DNA from: Pectobacterium atrosepticum
Lineage (GTDB): Bacteria; Pseudomonadota; Gammaproteobacteria; Enterobacterales; Enterobacteriaceae
DNA length: 64,000 bases
NCBI GenBank assembly: GCA_019056595.1
Contig: CP036163.1
Location: forward strand, 1 to 64,000
Direction: 5' to 3'
Both the position numbers and the translations under genes were made by a program. This document shows, one piece after another, positions 46,863-54,700 of the stretch. The notes under the pieces are model-generated. The model was not told the DNA's origin. It made no database searches and was given only the letters and a program-made list of their open reading frames with translations. Each line of letters opens with the position of its first letter. Position 1 is the first letter of the stretch.

Positions 46863-47176
46863 TCGCTGCTATTTGAATTAAGCGCCTAAGGGCGCTTTTT
46901 TTACGTCTCATGTTCGGTAATATTTTTTTATCGTAAAAATAATTTATCTATATCATGCCGCCCGTGCTACTTAACTTTTAAGATTAAAATGTTTTAAAAT
47001 CAATCAAATACTAACCTTCTGCTTTCAAGGGTGACGACCCTTCAGCGAGTATTGATTAATTCTTTCAATCCACAATTTGAGAAAGGCGTTTTAGCACTTT
47101 TTGCTCGGATTGACTTTTATATACGCAATGGCATGATGCGCTCACTCTTCTCCGGTTGTTTGGTTATTCACTCGCT
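46863..47176. other. Intergenic region between serS and ycaD
   Basis: A 314-bp, AT-rich region with the serS terminator at its start. An open frame at 47031-47231 runs into ycaD out of frame and is not convincing. It marks the spot of dmsABC in E. coli. Nothing else is seen. Confidence 0.45.
46881..46903 (+). terminator. Terminator of serS
   Basis: The stem AGCGCC / GGCGCT (46881-46886, 46891-46896) with loop TAAG is followed by seven T residues. Confidence 0.88.
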
Positions 47177-48331
47177 ATGTCTGCTTATTCCCGCCCAGTG
47201 CTGTTATTGCTCTGTGGACTTCTGCTGCTGACGGTTTGTATTGCAGTATTAAATACGTTGGTCCCACTTTGGCTAAGTTATCAGTCTCTTCCTGTCTGGC
47301 AGGTTGGCCTCGTTGGTTCTTCCTATTTCGGTGGCAATCTGGTTGGAACGCTATTAGCCGGTAAATTAATCAAACTTTATGGTTTCAACCGCAGCTATTA
47401 TTTTGCGGCTTTATTATTTGGCATCGCGATCGTTGGCCTCGGTATTTCTGCGGATATCGGCAGTTGGTTATTCTGGCGCTTCTTGGCAGGGATAGGTTGC
47501 GCATTGATCTGGGTTGTGGTTGAAAGCGCCTTGTTATGTAGTGGAACGTCGACGCAGAGAGGACAACTGCTGGCTGCTTATATGATTGCCTATTACCTCG
47601 GTAGCGTGATTGGACAGCTATTGCTTGGCGTGTTGCCTACATCATTATTGAGCGTGCTGCCGTGGATGGTCGCGTTAGTTACTTTGGCTGTATTACCTCT
47701 GTTGTGTACTCATCTTCCTACTCCGCCCGAACAGCACGAAAAGCATGTCAATATGTGGAAAATGCTGAGGTATCGCAGTGCGCGTCTAGGAATACACGGC
47801 TGTATTATTTCCGGCGCAATTTTAGGATCGCTGTATGGCCTGATGCCGCTGTACCTCTCCCATCAAGGAATGAATGATGCGCAGGTTGGGTACTGGATGG
47901 CGCTGCTGATTAGCTCAGGTATTGTCGGGCAATGGCCTGTTGGGCGTATGGCTGACCGCTATGGTCGGTTGTTGGTTCTTCGGGTGTTAGTCTTTGTGGT
48001 GATTATTGGCTGTGTTGCCATGCTAAGCATTAGTCACTATGCCATGGCACCGTCGCTATTTTTATTGGGATGCGCAGGGTTTACGCTATACCCGGTCGCT
48101 ATGTCGTGGGCATGTGAGAAGGTGCGTCCTGAAGAGTTGGTGGCGATGAATCAGGCGTTACTCCTTAGCTACACGCTTGGCAGTCTTTGCGGGCCAAGCG
48201 TTGCTGCGGTGTTGATGCAGAATTATTCTGATCGATTACTGTTCGTACTAATTGCCGCGGTAGCGATGATCTACCTGATGATATTGCTCAGAAAAGCCGA
48301 TCATCATCCAACGCCATTAGCTGCTGCCTGA
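47177..48331 (+). CDS. ycaD: YcaD, major facilitator superfamily transporter
   Basis: Inner-membrane MFS protein of unknown substrate, 384 residues, about 12 transmembrane helices. Family marks are [20 protein letters not shown] in the loop after helix 2, [20 protein letters not shown] and the second-half loop [20 protein letters not shown]. It is collinear with E. coli YcaD (382 aa). ATG at 47177 gives [14 protein letters not shown]; no clear ribosome site is present, and a TTG lies in frame at 47156. Its 3-prime end overlaps the convergent LysR gene by 15 bases. Confidence 0.9.
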
Positions 48332-49258
48332 GTTAGCGGTATCAAGGCTGGCCAACGAGCTTTGTCCCGCGTCTACCATATTGTTCCACAGCGCCTCGGC
48401 TACCGGGCTAAGGCGTTGTTTTGCATTTCGTACCAGATAAAATATGCTGGTTAGCTTTAAACGATCTGGAGCAACTGCCGCAAGCTTCCCTTTTTCCACC
48501 CACGATGCTGCATAATGGTCGGGAAGAAAACCAATATGGGTTCCCGCGAGCAGAAGTAACAAGCTTCCTTCTAGATGCCAAGCTGTCTGGTGGTAACCTT
48601 GCTTTGATACAGAACCTAGCTGTTTAGATATCTCGTTGACGGCATGCCCACCAATTAACAGCCTGCGAGGATTTAATTCACCCTCAAGCCATTCACGTTC
48701 GATCATCTCAGCATTTTCTGCTAGAGAATAAAAGTAGCTATGTTCAACAAAGACGGGCTGATAGAAAATGTCTGCGGGGATGTCATCGGGTAGGGCGCTT
48801 AGAACAACATCGAGATGCCCGTTTTTTAGCCGTTCCATGAGCGGAAGGTATTCCATAATTTCGATTTCGACGTTGACTTCCGGGCTTTGGTCATAAAGAT
48901 GGGATATAGCTTGTGATACAACGTTGTTGGGATGTGTGGCGATATTATCCAAGCAGCCTAGTTTTACTTTACCTATAAGCTGATGTTTGATACGGGCTAG
49001 TCTGTTAGCGAAATCATCGAGCGTGGAAATGACAGATTTTGCTTCCTGATAGACCACTTCACCTTCCGTTGTTAAGGCAAAACCCCCGCGACCACGTTCA
49101 CACAAAACAAGCCCAAGTGTATCCTCGAGTCGAGACAGGTAGTGGCTTAGGACGGGTTGACTTAATCCAGTTACGGTTTGTGCGTTGGTAATTCCTTGTT
49201 TTTCAACGATTTTACAAAAAAGCTTTAACCAGCGAATCTCCAGTTTATCTAAGCGCAT
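48317..49258 (-). CDS. LysR-family transcriptional regulator
   Basis: A 313-residue LysR-type regulator: winged helix-turn-helix in residues 1-65 ([20 protein letters not shown]) and an effector-binding domain with [23 protein letters not shown] at 49258 follows AAGGAAA on the minus strand. It is divergent from the permease-DUF917-HyuA operon, with 273 bp between, so it probably controls that operon in response to the substrate or a product. I do not recognise a named orthologue; the sequence suggests a distinct subgroup, with a small-residue C-terminus ([10 protein letters not shown]). Confidence 0.85.
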
Positions 49259-49301
49259 AGCATTTCCTTCGCATACATTACATATCTGAATGTTAACATC
49301 A

Positions 49302-49325
49302 AAATATATCTGTATTAATCGATAT
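49302..49325. promoter_or_regulatory. Possible LysR-type operator
   Basis: ATATATCTGTATTAATCGAT followed by ATGA holds a loose inverted repeat (ATC, ten bases, GAT; and ATAT ends) near the LysR start, where an auto-regulatory T-N11-A site is expected. The match is weak. Confidence 0.25.
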
Positions 49326-49418
49326 GAATCCCATTTATCTTACTGTTAAGCCGCATAGTAATGTGGTTACCACGAAAAAGCGTGGTTTTATGCGTCACAT
49401 CAGGGTCTCTCATAAGCA

Positions 49419-49452
49419 CAATGGTGTTGTTAGCTTGCTGACAACACCATTG
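49419..49452 (+). promoter_or_regulatory. Perfect 12-bp inverted repeat in the permease leader
   Basis: CAATGGTGTTGT (49419-49430) and ACAACACCATTG (49441-49452) are perfect complements around the loop TAGCTTGCTG. It lies 79 bp before the permease ATG. There is no T-run after it. It could be an operator or an RNA hairpin in the leader. Confidence 0.55.
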
Positions 49453-49531
49453 TTCTATACGTCGCCAGACAACCTCTATAAAATATCACAACGATACAAT
49501 AATTATTTGCTGCTTATTCAATGGAGGAGTT

Positions 49532-50839
49532 ATGTCTCAAGGGAATGCTGTGCCTGAAAAACAACAACAGGAGCGGCAAATCTATGATTACGAATACGAA
49601 CCTGTCCCTGCCGAAGCCAGAAAACGCTGGTATGTAATTACGTTAATATGGTTGGCGATCGGAATTGATATTTCAGGTTTGTTCCTTGGTACTTTTTTGA
49701 GCGGTGGGTTACCATTTTCTCAGGCCGTCAGTGCTACGCTTATTGGTTCTGCTTTGCTCGGTGTGCTTGCAGCATTATGCGCTAATGTGGGTTATGGCTG
49801 TGGACTATCGACGACGTTGTTAAGTATCTCGGTGTTTGGCAAATTTGGCGGCAAACTTATCGGCATATTCTCTGCGGTTTCTTTAGTGGGGTGGTTCGCT
49901 TTCCAGCTTGATTTCTTTGGTGCCATGCTACAAAAGGCATTACTTCATTATCATTTTGAACCCGGCCGTTTTCCTATCTTACTATTTGGCATGATACTGA
50001 TGGCATTAACAGCTATTTGGGGAGTCAGATCATTAGGACGGCTCAGCATGTTTAGCGTTCCTTTAATGCTGATCCTGATAGTAACAGGGATTTATTTGGC
50101 CGCAGTTGATCACTCTACACCACCAACAATAACTATTAAAAATCCCATTAGTATGGGAAGCGCAATCTCTTATGTTGTCTCTATCTGGATAGTTGCGGCT
50201 AGTATTATGTCCCCTGATATTGCGCGCTACGCCAAAACACGTAAAGACGCCATCTTAGGGGCAGGATTAGGCTTTTGCTTCGGTAATAGCGCGACAATCT
50301 TAGTTGCGCTTTTACTGACCCATCTGGTCGGTAGCGATGATCTTGTCGAAATATTCTTTAGTATTGGGCTGGGCATGTCAGCCATTGTGATTTTAATCTT
50401 TGCTCAATGGACAACAAATAGCTCAAATCTAATCTCCGCATCGTTAGGGCTCTCTGTGGTTATCCGGGCATTGTCACGACCTACGCTAGTGATTTTGATG
50501 GCTTTTATCGGATTATTTTTCGCCTACAACGGGATGATTAATAATTTTACCCAATTTCTCTCATTATTGGGGGTGATAGTTTCACCAATCGCTGGTGTAT
50601 ATCTGGCTGAATATTACTTTTTTGACTTATCACCATCAAAGATCGATATATCAGAACCGAAGAATCTGAACATTGGGGCCGCTGCAGCGTGGATATGCGG
50701 AAGTTTGGTTAGCCTCTTGACATCGACAGATTTTTTCAATGTTCTTACTATTAGCTCTATTTCTGCTTTAGATGGAATAATGGTGAGTATGGCGGTATAT
50801 GTCGCTTTGCGTAAGATATTCCCACGAGTGGGAATGTAA
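49532..50839 (+). CDS. NCS1-family (cytosine permease-like) transporter
   Basis: Inner-membrane nucleobase:cation symporter-1 protein, 435 residues with about 12 hydrophobic helices. The N-terminal part (PVPAEARKRWYVITLIWLAI, then GLFLGTFLSGGLPFSQAV) resembles cytosine permease CodB and purine/hydantoin permeases. Other marks are the SPDIARYAKTRKDAILG and QWTTNSSNLISASLGL segments. GGAGGAG precedes ATG (spacing about four). It is the first gene of a three-gene operon with degradative enzymes, so it probably imports their substrate. The substrate could be a hydantoin, pyrimidine or related ring compound; codA is not beside it. Confidence 0.85.
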   Translation: MSQGNAVPEKQQQERQIYDYEYEPVPAEARKRWYVITLIWLAIGIDISGLFLGTFLSGGLPFSQAVSATLIGSALLGVLAALCANVGYGCGLSTTLLSISVFGKFGGKLIGIFSAVSLVGWFAFQLDFFGAMLQKALLHYHFEPGRFPILLFGMILMALTAIWGVRSLGRLSMFSVPLMLILIVTGIYLAAVDHSTPPTITIKNPISMGSAISYVVSIWIVAASIMSPDIARYAKTRKDAILGAGLGFCFGNSATILVALLLTHLVGSDDLVEIFFSIGLGMSAIVILIFAQWTTNSSNLISASLGLSVVIRALSRPTLVILMAFIGLFFAYNGMINNFTQFLSLLGVIVSPIAGVYLAEYYFFDLSPSKIDISEPKNLNIGAAAAWICGSLVSLLTSTDFFNVLTISSISALDGIMVSMAVYVALRKIFPRVGM

Positions 50840-50871
50840 TTGCTTGAACCCCTATTTTTAAATAGGGGTTC
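50818..50871 (+). promoter_or_regulatory. Two tandem perfect hairpins between permease and DUF917 genes
   Basis: Hairpin 1: ATTCCCAC / GTGGGAAT (50818-50825, 50828-50835) around GA, ending one base before the permease stop codon. Hairpin 2: GAACCCCTATTT / AAATAGGGGTTC (50846-50857, 50860-50871) with a TT centre, 20 bp before the next start. Neither is followed by a T-run. A role in mRNA stability, partial termination or coupling is possible. Confidence 0.5.
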
Positions 50872-50891
50872 TTCGTCTGTCTGGACAAATA

Positions 50892-52001
50892 ATGACTCGT
50901 TATATTGATTCTGAAACAATAGATGATATTGCTCTGGGAGCGTCGGTTCTCGGCACAGGGGGCGGGGGAGACCCCTATCTTGGCTCGCTAATTGCCAAGA
51001 ATGCATTACGTAATACCCAGCCTATTGTTCTGATGAATCTCGATGATATCGAAGATGACTCACTTTTTGTTCCATGTAGCACTATGGGTGCGCCGACGGT
51101 TTCTGTGGAGAAAATTATTTCACAGCGCCAGATTATTTTGGCATTTGACACGATGGAAACAGTGCTAGCGGAATCAGCTTCGGGAACATTTTCAATCGAA
51201 GTCGGTGGTATTAACTCTCTGATCCCATTTGTTGTTGCGGCTAAAAAAGGGCTGCCGGTTATCGATTGTGATGCAATGGGGCGTGCATTCCCCGAAGCGC
51301 AGATGGTGACCTTTTTTCTCGATGGCTTATCTTCGGCACCGAACACGCTAGCTGATGAGAAAGGTAACTCGGTTATCCTTAATCCTATTGATGGTGTGTG
51401 GTCTGAGCGGTTAGCCAGAGCCATTACAGAGCAGATGGGTGCCGCCTGTGCGATGTGTGATTATCCGCTCCGTGGACACGAGCTCAAACGTAGCGCCATA
51501 AAAGGAACGCTTACCCTAGCGCAAAATATCGGAAAAACGCTGCGTGAGGCTCATCAGTCGGGCAGTGATCCTGTGCAGTCTCTACTCACTGTGCTTAATG
51601 GTCACGTCATTGCATCGGGTAAGATTATCGATGTTGATCGGCGCACAACCGGTGGTTTTGCTCGAGGTAAAGTGGTGCTGGATGGTATGGGCAACGATAA
51701 AGGCGAATCGTTTACGGTACTTTTCCAGAATGAACTCTTGCTGGCTTATCGCTCGTCACAGACGACAAACCCTACGCAGGATAATCTGCTGGCAGTTGTA
51801 CCTGATTTAATCTCGATATTAGACAGTGAAACGGGACGTCCGATTATTACGGAGCATTTACGTTATGGGCAGCGAGTCGATATCATTGCCTATCCGTGCA
51901 ATGACAAATGGCGAACGCCAAAAGGGATTGAGGTCGCGGGGCCGGAGTATTTCGGCTATCCGGTGCGGTATGTACCAATAGAACAGCTTGCAAACCGCTG
52001 A
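50892..52001 (+). CDS. DUF917 / S-methyl-thiohydantoin desulfurase-family protein
   Basis: A 369-residue cytosolic protein of the DUF917 family, now named after S-methyl-thiohydantoin desulfurase (S-Me-THD) because one member acts in ergothioneine-type breakdown. The glycine-rich LGTGGGGDPYLG near the N-terminus, PCSTMGAPTVSVEKI, GLPVIDCDAMGRAFPEAQM and DYPLRGHELKRSAIKGTL are typical. No membrane part or signal peptide is seen. ATG at 50892 has a poor ribosome site. It comes 52 bp after the permease and 10 bp before the HyuA gene. The family often occurs beside or fused to hydantoinase/oxoprolinase domains. The real substrate here is unknown. Confidence 0.85.
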   Translation: MTRYIDSETIDDIALGASVLGTGGGGDPYLGSLIAKNALRNTQPIVLMNLDDIEDDSLFVPCSTMGAPTVSVEKIISQRQIILAFDTMETVLAESASGTFSIEVGGINSLIPFVVAAKKGLPVIDCDAMGRAFPEAQMVTFFLDGLSSAPNTLADEKGNSVILNPIDGVWSERLARAITEQMGAACAMCDYPLRGHELKRSAIKGTLTLAQNIGKTLREAHQSGSDPVQSLLTVLNGHVIASGKIIDVDRRTTGGFARGKVVLDGMGNDKGESFTVLFQNELLLAYRSSQTTNPTQDNLLAVVPDLISILDSETGRPIITEHLRYGQRVDIIAYPCNDKWRTPKGIEVAGPEYFGYPVRYVPIEQLANR

Positions 52002-52011
52002 GGCTTTCCCG

Positions 52012-53580
52012 ATGTTACATAAAAATGATTACCGACTCGGGATTGATGTCGGAGGCACAAACACGGATGCAGCAATTTTAGATGCTGATCTGCGCTGTAT
52101 TGCGACGGCTAAATTTCCTACGAGTATGGATATCTATAGCGGCATTGAGCGCGTGATTGCTGCGGTATTGGCGCAATCAGGCATCGAGCCGCAGCATATT
52201 TGCTATGCGATGTTAGGCACAACCCAATGTACCAATGCAATTGTTGAGCGAAAAGGGCTGGATCGCGTCGGATTACTGCGTCTGAGTCTGCCAAGCAGTG
52301 ATAGCGTCCCGCCGCTGTTTGGCTGGGATGACGAGTGGCAAAAGACATTAGGTGAGCATTTCTACCAGCTTCATGGCGGCTATGAATTTGATGGTCGGGA
52401 GATCCATCCCGTACTATTGAATGAAGTGCTGGCGGTCTGTGACAAGATGCGTGGTCATGTGGATAGCGTTGCTATCTGTGGCGTATTTTCCCCAGTAAAT
52501 AATGATCAGGAATTGCAGGTTGCCCAATGGGTGAATGCGGCATTGCCTGATGTTTCCCTGTCATTATCCCACCGAATAGGCAGCACGGGATTGCTGGAAA
52601 GAGAAAACGCGACGATCCTGAATGCGTCGCTGCAAAGTACCGCAAACCGTTTTGTTAACGGCTTTATACAAGCGCTAGTTCGGCACGGAATCAAGGCTAC
52701 GCCATTCTTCGGGCAAAATGACGGCACATTGATGTCCGAAAGTATGGTGAAGCAATATCCCATTCTGACGATGGCCTGTGGGCCAACGAACTCTATTCGC
52801 GGTGCGTGCCACCTTTCGGGATTGGATAATGCGCTGATTATTGATGTTGGCGGTACGACGACAGATATTGGCGTATTAGTTAATGGCTTCCCGCGTGAAT
52901 CGGCAATTGCCGTTGAAGTGGGCGATGTGCGGACGAATTTCAGGATGCCGGATATTATTTCTATCGGCATTGGTGGTGGGACTTGCGTTCGGCAGTCTCA
53001 GAACGGAACACTCACCCTTGGGCCTGACAGCGTCGGCTATCGTCTTCTTGAGCAGAGCGTCAGTTTTGGCGGGGAGACATTAACGCTCAACGATATCATG
53101 CTGCAACTTCAGCGTGAGCGATGGACATCCTCGCTTTCTCATCCACTGCCTGAGCTAGATAAAGCACTTTGTCTGGAGGCTTATCGTCAGATGATTGATA
53201 AAGTGGAAAGTGCTATCGATCGGATTAAATCGTCGAGTGCGGCCATTCCTGCCGTGCTTGTTGGCGGTGGCAGTATTTTACTGCCTGACGTTTTATCCGG
53301 TGTCAGTCAGGTCATGCGTCCGCAGAATTTTGATGCGGCAAATGCGGTGGGTGTGGCACTAGGGAAAGTGGGGGCACAGATCGAGCGCGTGGTTAAAATG
53401 CCGGATAACGATCGTGAAAAGATAAAAAGCGAATTACAGCAGCAAACTATTTGTCTTGCGGAAGAGACGGGAGCCATGTCTGGCAGCGTTGAAATCATCG
53501 ATTATCAGGAAATTCCGCTAGCCTATCTGCCGGGGAATGCAGTACAGGTGAAAATCAAAGCGGCAGGGAATCTGGCTTAA
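52012..53580 (+). CDS. HyuA-type hydantoinase/oxoprolinase
   Basis: A 522-residue ATPase-fold protein of the hydantoinase A/5-oxoprolinase family, which opens cyclic imides or amides with ATP. The N-terminal phosphate loop RLGIDVGGTNTDAAIL (about residues 7-22) and the second one ALIIDVGGTTTDIGVL (about 275) mark the two lobes; TMACGPTNSIRGACHLSG precedes the second. The HyuB partner gene common in other clusters is absent. The frame is open from a TTG at 51988, but ATG at 52012, with GAGG upstream, gives MLHKNDYRLGIDVGG and lies 10 bp after the preceding stop. It is the last gene of the operon. Confidence 0.85.
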   Translation: MLHKNDYRLGIDVGGTNTDAAILDADLRCIATAKFPTSMDIYSGIERVIAAVLAQSGIEPQHICYAMLGTTQCTNAIVERKGLDRVGLLRLSLPSSDSVPPLFGWDDEWQKTLGEHFYQLHGGYEFDGREIHPVLLNEVLAVCDKMRGHVDSVAICGVFSPVNNDQELQVAQWVNAALPDVSLSLSHRIGSTGLLERENATILNASLQSTANRFVNGFIQALVRHGIKATPFFGQNDGTLMSESMVKQYPILTMACGPTNSIRGACHLSGLDNALIIDVGGTTTDIGVLVNGFPRESAIAVEVGDVRTNFRMPDIISIGIGGGTCVRQSQNGTLTLGPDSVGYRLLEQSVSFGGETLTLNDIMLQLQRERWTSSLSHPLPELDKALCLEAYRQMIDKVESAIDRIKSSSAAIPAVLVGGGSILLPDVLSGVSQVMRPQNFDAANAVGVALGKVGAQIERVVKMPDNDREKIKSELQQQTICLAEETGAMSGSVEIIDYQEIPLAYLPGNAVQVKIKAAGNLA

Positions 53581-53641
53581 CTCGGTACTTGTCTACAATG
53601 TAGCGGGTCAAGATCAGTCGCGATGTTGATCCGCTGAAATG

Positions 53642-53674
53642 AAAATAGCGCGCTGAGTGAGCGCGCTATTTTTT
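53642..53674. terminator. Bidirectional terminator between the hyuA-like gene and pflA
   Basis: A perfect 13-bp stem AAAATAGCGCGCT / AGCGCGCTATTTT (53642-53654, 53660-53672) with T-runs in both directions, between convergent operons. Confidence 0.88.
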
Positions 53675-53690
53675 CAGAAAGCGTCAGAGA

Positions 53691-54431
53691 TTAGTAGATT
53701 ACCTTGTGACCGTAGCTTTCCAGAATCGATTTAACGCGATCCATCGTATCGGCTTTCGGCGGTTTAACACCGTCTAATTTGTACTCTTCCCCCATCGCTA
53801 CCCACTTGTGTTTACCAAGCTCATGGTACGGGAGAAGCTCAATTTTCTCGATGTTCGTCATATCTTTGGTGAATTCGCCCAGCTTGTGCGTGGATTCATC
53901 GTCATCAGACCAGCCGGGTACCACCACATAACGTATCCAAGTGCGCTGGTTGCGTTTTGCCAGATAGCGAGCGAAATCCAGAGTGCGGTGATTCGATACG
54001 CCAACTAAATTCTGATGGATATCATCGTTCATTTGCTTCAGGTCGAGCATCACTAAATCGCTGACGTCCAACAGCTCGTCAATGACGGGATCGTAGCGGC
54101 GTACAAATCCATTGGTGTCCAAACAGGTGTTAATGCCTTCATCCTTACAAGCACGGAACCAATCGCGTACAAATTCGGCTTGCAGAATGGCCTCGCCGCC
54201 TGATGCGGTTACACCGCCGCCGGATGCATTCATAAAATGGCGATAGGTCACGACTTCTTTCATGAGTTCTTCAACCGTCACTTCTTTGCCGCCGTGCGTA
54301 TCCCAGGTATCACGGTTATGGCAATACAGGCAGCGCATCAGACAGCCCTGAAAGAAGATAATGAAACGGATGCCTGGGCCATCGACGGTGCCACAGGATT
54401 CAAAAGAGTGGATGCGACCGATTACTGACAT
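53691..54431 (-). CDS. pflA: Pyruvate formate-lyase-activating enzyme
   Basis: Radical SAM enzyme that makes the glycyl radical of PflB. The 246 residues equal E. coli PflA. The 4Fe-4S cluster motif C30-x3-C34-x2-C37 is in [33 protein letters not shown] holds the SAM-binding part. The open frame extends to 54590, but ATG at 54431 gives [14 protein letters not shown], with GGAG upstream. It follows pflB in the order focA-pflB-pflA, with its own probable promoter in the 269-bp gap. Confidence 0.96.
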
Positions 54432-54642
54432 TGCGAGGTTTTCTCCAAATTTGACCGGACAATAGCGGTCTTTATGAGCGCAGTCATGAGAAAGCAGGTA
54501 CCTATCTGGCAGGAATTTCTGACAGAAGAACACCGTATGACAGATGCTGCGTCGAATCTGTTTTGCAAGCCATCCACATGATGAAGGCAATATAGCGGGC
54601 TGGCAAAACAGGCTGACAATCTGAACGACAAGCGAGGGCGAG

Positions 54643-54671
54643 AAAAAGGCCCCACTGACGTGGAGCCTTTA
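54643..54671 (-). terminator. Terminator of focA-pflB
   Basis: On the minus strand AAAGGCTCCAC / GTGGGGCCTTT (one mismatch) around GTCA is followed by TT and T-rich sequence. It lies 30 bp beyond the pflB stop. Confidence 0.75.
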
Positions 54672-54700
54672 TTTTACGCTTTTTCAGACAGCCATGGAAA

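Follow-up and report, generated by a model that had tools for sequence, protein, structure and literature searches.

A conserved four-gene block in Pectobacterium atrosepticum, predicted to import and open a hydantoin-type ring

What does a bacterium take up and open with a permease, a DUF917 protein and a HyuA-type protein whose genes lie together beside their own regulator gene? The question is raised by a locus in a stretch of 64,000 nucleotides from Pectobacterium atrosepticum (contig CP036163.1, positions 1 to 64,000; the window), in which a gene for a LysR-type regulator faces three genes coding for an NCS1 permease, a DUF917/S-Me-THD protein and a HyuA-type hydantoinase (Table 1). An initial annotation described this locus as a single uptake and ring-opening unit closed by a strong terminator. 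The layout is confirmed by the open reading frames, by Pfam matches and by the fold of a terminator-type hairpin with a T run after hyuA (-22 kcal/mol, z -4.9, for positions 53635-53680), although the terminator consensus scan of the window did not list it. The comparisons described below also support the idea of a single unit. We suggest, with about even confidence, that the block imports a hydantoin-type or related imide ring and opens it at the expense of adenosine triphosphate (ATP), with the DUF917 protein replacing HyuB. The cassette is real and widespread and is built of known protein families; its substrate class is predicted.

In the proposed route, the LysR protein would sense the compound and switch on the operon, and the permease would import a small ring compound, an imide or ureide and most likely one of the hydantoin type. 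The short HyuA protein would then use ATP to phosphorylate a ring carbonyl and so activate it, as proposed for CapA of the caprolactamase CapAB. The DUF917 protein, in the position of HyuB, would complete hydrolysis of the ring to give a linear product resembling an N-carbamoyl amino acid; general hydrolases encoded elsewhere in the genome could then complete its breakdown.

The permease pocket

Among solved structures, the permease is nearest overall to the CodB-type cytosine permease, with 26% identity to CodB as against 17-21% to Mhp1 and to AllW, the E. coli allantoin carrier. Taken alone, this would point to salvage of cytosine or another pyrimidine. However, the score against the cytosine permease family is 188 bits, where the cut-off is 326. 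Cytosine is held in CodB by the side chains of Gln105, Trp108 and Phe204, while the main hydrogen bonds of the hydantoin hash motif in Mhp1 involve Gln121 and Asn318 (PMC9379551; here and below, PMC numbers refer to the accessible parts of the papers). The window permease has Leu118 at the position of CodB Gln105, so that the cytosine contact is lost. The block contains no cytosine deaminase, an enzyme for which no genome-wide search was made. Cytosine or pyrimidine salvage is therefore considered highly unlikely.

The positions of Mhp1 Trp117, Gln121, Trp220 and Asn318 are occupied in the window permease by Trp121, Gln125, Trp219 and Asn299. The numbering of the two Mhp1 tryptophans agrees with the aligned sequence. 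The same Trp/Gln/Trp/Asn set is present in AllW (Trp119, Gln123, Trp240 and Asn329), whereas CodB has Gly112 and Ala283 in place of the Gln and the Asn. Both the Gln and the Asn are kept in all 22 permeases examined, a subset of those retrieved, from the group of 23 rows described below, which covers Pectobacteriaceae, Vibrio, Bacilli and insect symbionts. The pocket thus appears to be of the hydantoin/allantoin type and not of the cytosine type, with transport itself predicted, and the earlier suggestion that a hydantoin-type ring is imported is strengthened.

Several observations weigh against this assignment. Of the 22 permeases, only the 11 from Pectobacteriaceae and Vibrio retain Trp219; the pocket Asn is also present in five of five NCS1 rows that lack a short HyuA; the permease from a Novosphingobium plasmid (L134) has Asn for the Gln and Asp for the Trp; and NCS1 substrates are hard to tell from sequence, according to a study of Pseudomonas carriers (PMC11633122). 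Because all five rows outside the group keep the Asn, the Gln is the sole discriminating residue of the pocket: it is replaced by Asn in all four permeases examined (L068 left out) whose neighbouring DUF917 gene has no HyuA, and by Thr in the one that lies close to a long HyuA. Fungal carriers for uracil and allantoin use a related Gln/Asn pair as well, and the prediction is therefore of an imide or ureide ring, not of hydantoin alone. No binding-site residues were found in the accessible part of a paper on FurE (PMC10788122).

HyuA and DUF917 as a putative ring-opening pair

The HyuA protein has an ASKHA fold, its model resembles CapA and acetone carboxylase beta, and it carries both phosphate motifs, DxGGTxTD and DxGGT. 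It shares these motifs and this fold with the ATP-dependent cyclic amidases of the HyuA/HyuB type (caprolactamase CapAB, N-methylhydantoinase and 5-oxoprolinase), but it is about 520 rather than 670-692 residues long, lacks the adenosine motif GxxPGP, and has DUF917 in the place of HyuB. A search for HyuB (PF02538) found no match in the window's genome; the same search finds it in 6 of 14 control genomes. The block holds no D-hydantoinase, N-carbamoylase or racemase (the racemase was not searched for genome-wide), and the genome has no D-hydantoinase above cut-off. The initial annotation had both HyuB and N-carbamoylase missing: for HyuB this holds throughout the genome, but for N-carbamoylase it holds for the block, since one gene for a hydantase-family hydrolase lies elsewhere (385 bits, cut-off 204). 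Its view that this is not a standard hydantoin or cytosine pathway is supported.

5-Oxoprolinases belong to the HyuA family, and the block might on this basis take up and open 5-oxoproline. Two pxpA-type genes (PF03746) are, however, already present elsewhere in the genome, and no NCS1 carrier is known for 5-oxoproline. This is the least probable of the readings considered here.

The DUF917 protein contains both S-Me-THD domains (PF06032, 187 bits; PF20906, 231 bits). Its predicted model has a predicted local distance difference test (pLDDT) score of 93 and a clear fold match to 2o3i only, with no HyuB-type chain among the matches listed. It has both Pfam domains in common with the thiohydantoin and S-methyl thiohydantoin desulfurases, and one could envisage that the HyuA/DUF917 pair strips sulfur from thiohydantoins, for example those that plant isothiocyanates and amino acids can form; a 2-thiohydantoin alkaloid has been reported in Moringa seeds (PMC10054748). 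Against two thiohydantoin desulfurase families (NF058529 and NF058532), however, it scores 87 and 93 bits, far below the cut-offs of 440 and 450. The true members L087 and L071 (591 and 616 bits) are distant from it in the tree and have no HyuA match in their loci, whereas the window protein is partnered with HyuA. Membership is thus rejected by score and by tree, and the thiohydantoin lead of the initial annotation is very improbable. A literature search for thiohydantoin together with desulfurase gave no match.

DUF917 proteins were called experimentally uncharacterised in a 2024 paper, which inferred from structural comparison that they are perhaps hydantoinases by themselves (PMC11055893). 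The main rival to our reading follows this suggestion: DUF917 alone would be the ring hydrolase, independent of ATP, and HyuA would have a reactivating or regulatory role. In addition to the structural comparison, it would account for the many DUF917 loci that have no HyuA match (such as L065-L068, L073, L083-L090 and L101) and for the missing adenosine motif of the short HyuA. On the other hand, HyuA adjoins DUF917 in all 23 rows of the window's branch (a group so defined) and in 11 of 11 Vibrio loci, and it retains the phosphate motifs and the fold. We regard this rival as unlikely.

The preferred reading, in which HyuA and DUF917 open the ring together using ATP, also has features that do not fit it well. 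The CapA-type GxxPGP motif is found in none of the 30 short HyuA rows (the aligned stretch in the window protein is GYRLLEQSVSFGG), so that ATP use by the short HyuA is putative. The metal site of CapB is an Asp-His-Asp-His zinc site (PMC8453981); there is no invariant His in 45 DUF917 rows, and therefore no sign of this site in DUF917. No fusion of HyuA with DUF917 was seen among the loci opened, and complex formation is thus without support from fusions. It is possible, and we propose it tentatively, that short HyuA and DUF917 constitute a two-protein class of ring-opening enzyme in which DUF917 has taken over from HyuB. HyuA would convert the ring to an activated (phospho-)imide, and DUF917 would hydrolyse this intermediate at an Arg/Asn/acid site that either contains no metal or is built in another way; the class would have spread through Gammaproteobacteria and Bacilli in the form of portable import cassettes. 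The same three gene types, permease, DUF917 and hydantoinase, appear in tables for Lacticaseibacillus rhamnosus (PMC7513527) and for Clostridioides difficile (CDR20291_1615-1617; PMC12915319), as listings with no function tested there.

Conservation, age and associated elements

The neighbourhood is conserved far beyond one strain. The DUF917 gene is present in all 25 Pectobacterium genomes searched, as one open frame in 24 and in pieces in one (G657). The latter seems to be the same record as L027 (Pectobacterium sp. PL152), where the rarA, permease and DUF917 genes are all frameshifted, and the breaks are likely to reflect poor sequence rather than gene decay. The closest named relative of the window DUF917 protein is from P. 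peruviense (96%). Twenty-seven loci with the DUF917 protein were retrieved, 16 from Pectobacterium, Brenneria or Samsonia and 11 from Vibrio. All four genes are unbroken and keep the same order in 14 of the 16 Pectobacteriaceae loci, the exceptions being L014 (contig end) and L027 (broken), and in all 11 Vibrio loci. The LysR protein beside the trio is 78-96% identical within Pectobacteriaceae. Identities between Vibrio and the window are 38-40% for LysR, 51-53% for the permease, 60-61% for DUF917 and 57-60% for HyuA.

The 11 Vibrio loci represent seven neighbourhoods: in a nucleotide comparison their 3-kb flanks are mutually unlike, except for five that share one (one right flank has only 305 bases, and one pair has 63 bases in common). 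Because the same four genes lie in seven different neighbourhoods, the block is, judged from these comparisons, a travelling module that moves as a unit.

In the window the block sits between ycaD and pflA, with rarA-serS-ycaD upstream and pflA-pflB-focA downstream. The same interval in E. coli K-12 is occupied by ycaM-ycaN-ycaK, and the E. coli genomes gave no near-identity match to window positions 47000-54700. The LysR protein was tried as an orthologue of YcaN and rejected (22% identity over 87 residues). The interval was read in 20 other genera of the family (L141-L160), from 24 other genomes with a ycaD match (G662, G682, G166 and G042 were left out). It is bare in nine (32-104 bases between the matched parts of both genes) and has other content in nine; one (G677) has the same four-gene block, and one (G671) has a lone LysR orthologue of 71% identity. 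The G671 genome has no PF06032 gene anywhere, but keeps the promoter region, with the RNA element described below, adjoining lysR. These comparisons are most simply explained if the content of the interval varies, the block has long been part of the lineage, and the three structural genes were lost from G671. The initial annotation had the block replacing E. coli genes and looking acquired. The first part is right in that other genes occupy the interval in K-12; a recent strain-level acquisition is rejected by the interval comparison and by the presence of the DUF917 gene in every one of the 25 Pectobacterium genomes, so that the word acquired fits only in the long view.

Table 1. Features of the block and its non-coding regions (window positions).
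Feature	Position	Strand	Remarks
LysR-type regulator gene	48317-49258	-	Pfam HTH_1 and LysR_substrate; divergent from operon
Conserved block, probable LysR operator	49290-49328	.	ATGTTAACAT palindrome, then ATATC-N10-GATAT dyad
Candidate structured RNA element	49366-49460	+ (not settled)	Small hairpin; 18-base motif at 49388-49405; 16-bp covarying hairpin at about 49418-49454
NCS1 permease gene	49532-50839	+	Pfam Transp_cyt_pur; predicted hydantoin-type pocket W121, Q125, W219, N299
11-bp hairpin, permease/DUF917 spacer	50846-50871	+	Fold z -5.0
DUF917/S-Me-THD-like gene	50892-52001	+	PF06032 and PF20906; proposed ring-opening partner
Short HyuA-type ASKHA gene	52012-53580	+	From ATG (TTG 51988 possible); Pfam Hydant_A_N and Hydantoinase_A; 522 residues
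Intrinsic terminator 3' of hyuA	53641-53676	+	GC-rich stem, then T run; z -4.9

The start of hyuA is probably the ATG at 52012, with the TTG listed by the ORF finder lying too early, because the ATG fits the alignment and residues 1-10 of the longer model have pLDDT below 50. The hairpin in the permease/DUF917 spacer recurs in only one, L002 (Pectobacterium), of 14 other Pectobacteriaceae loci whose spacers were compared, and is therefore placed outside the core system; the spacers of the other 13 loci are unrelated to that of the window.

Two elements lie between lysR and the permease gene. The palindrome ATGTTAACAT is present in 14 of 14 rows and the adjoining dyad in 11, being absent from three Brenneria rows; this conserved block is a probable operator for the LysR protein. 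The second is a candidate RNA element of 95 bases, whose 18-base motif, TTATGCGTCACATCAGGG, occurs once in the window's genome. Across 15 sequences, 98.7% of pair cells are paired, against a mean of 92.2 in shuffles, and both sides have changed in 8 of 20 pairs. Pairing, two-sided changes and covariation score were matched by none of 500 shuffles, while the further pair types are unremarkable (172 of 500 shuffles were as high). With the partners shifted by 1-3 columns, pairing falls to 28-65%. In L159, a locus that did not enter the model, the RNA model recovers the element next to the solitary lysR (54.5 bits, E 9e-12). In L141 it scores 15.9 bits (E 0.5), about what a chance match in the window reaches (15.4 bits), although the motif can be seen there by eye, with a complete hairpin that differs in sequence. 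Matches of the model (R1) in distant genomes of the order (G128, G257, G041 and G139) were rejected as plain terminator-like hairpins without the 18-base motif. No Rfam family matched at gathering score, and the best matches, to eukaryotic microRNA models far below their gathering scores, were taken as chance. The hairpin also matches on the opposite strand (30 bits), and the strand is therefore not settled. The element is a candidate leader, small RNA or two-way terminator.

Wider distribution and significance

Among 295 genomes of the order, 17 carry PF06032; for the phylum the count is 20 of 398, of which 19 score above cut-off. All the wider loci were fetched through DUF917, and the counts speak for short HyuA beside DUF917 only. 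DUF917 relatives occur in 136 of 72,556 plasmid records, for which 40 rows were listed and 19 regions read. Permease, DUF917 and HyuA are found together in 12 of these 19, on plasmids from Peribacillus, Parageobacillus, Listeria, Limosilactobacillus (two), Lactiplantibacillus (two), Pediococcus, Planococcus, Sodalis, Arsenophonus (where the permease gene is on the opposite strand) and Novosphingobium (located by tblastn in an unannotated record). Six regions have DUF917 and HyuA without an adjoining NCS1 gene; for one of them, L102, HyuA was seen solely as a tblastn match in two frames. The remaining region, L101, has DUF917 but no HyuA. The regulators near the plasmid cassettes vary, being of LysR, PucR, TetR or sigma-54 type. 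The insect symbionts with a plasmid cassette are L099 (Sodalis, the 27-kb pSG2) and L097 (Arsenophonus). Among other arrangements, L074, L079, L081 and L096 have two DUF917 genes and HyuA, with ATP-binding cassette (ABC) transporter genes in the same locus, and may represent a heteromeric form; and L065-L068 and L073, from other genomes of the order, have an NCS1 permease and a distant DUF917 without HyuA.

A tree was made of 59 DUF917 proteins, after 14 near-identical rows had been removed from 73. L063 and L064, whose sequences resembled L022 and L028, were excluded from the protein sets. The 23 rows with permease and HyuA lie on one side of a branch that spans Bacilli, Enterobacterales and Vibrio, with a Shimodaira-Hasegawa-like approximate likelihood ratio (SH-aLRT) support of 92.6, below the mark of 95. 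Five labels were changed after the first reading of the tree, L093, L094, L068 and L098 from annotation or matches and L092_1 by judgement. L092_1 is a second DUF917-HyuA pair within a locus that holds a permease cassette; the single-branch result requires it to be outside the permease and HyuA group, and a tree joining it to the 23 is not rejected (approximately unbiased test, p-AU 0.14). When the Novosphingobium row (L134) was added, the 23 rows still grouped together (87.0) with Novosphingobium outside (p-AU 0.01 for its inclusion). Because it falls outside, the association of NCS1 permeases with HyuA-DUF917 seems to have arisen more than once, and L134 is probably an independent assembly. 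It is a plasmid of Novosphingobium sp. RL4, from another order, with the gene order HyuA-DUF917-NCS1 permease and a different permease pocket.

The initial annotation tied the operon to plant or animal tissue. This is not supported, since close counterparts are found in Vibrio and in soil Bacilli.

DUF917 genes are widespread, and the cassette offers a unit of four genes whose substrate class is predicted and which is small enough for transfer to laboratory E. coli. If the proposal is correct, DUF917 would be a second type of partner for HyuA proteins, and the cassette would represent a nutrient route common to plant, marine, gut and insect-associated bacteria.

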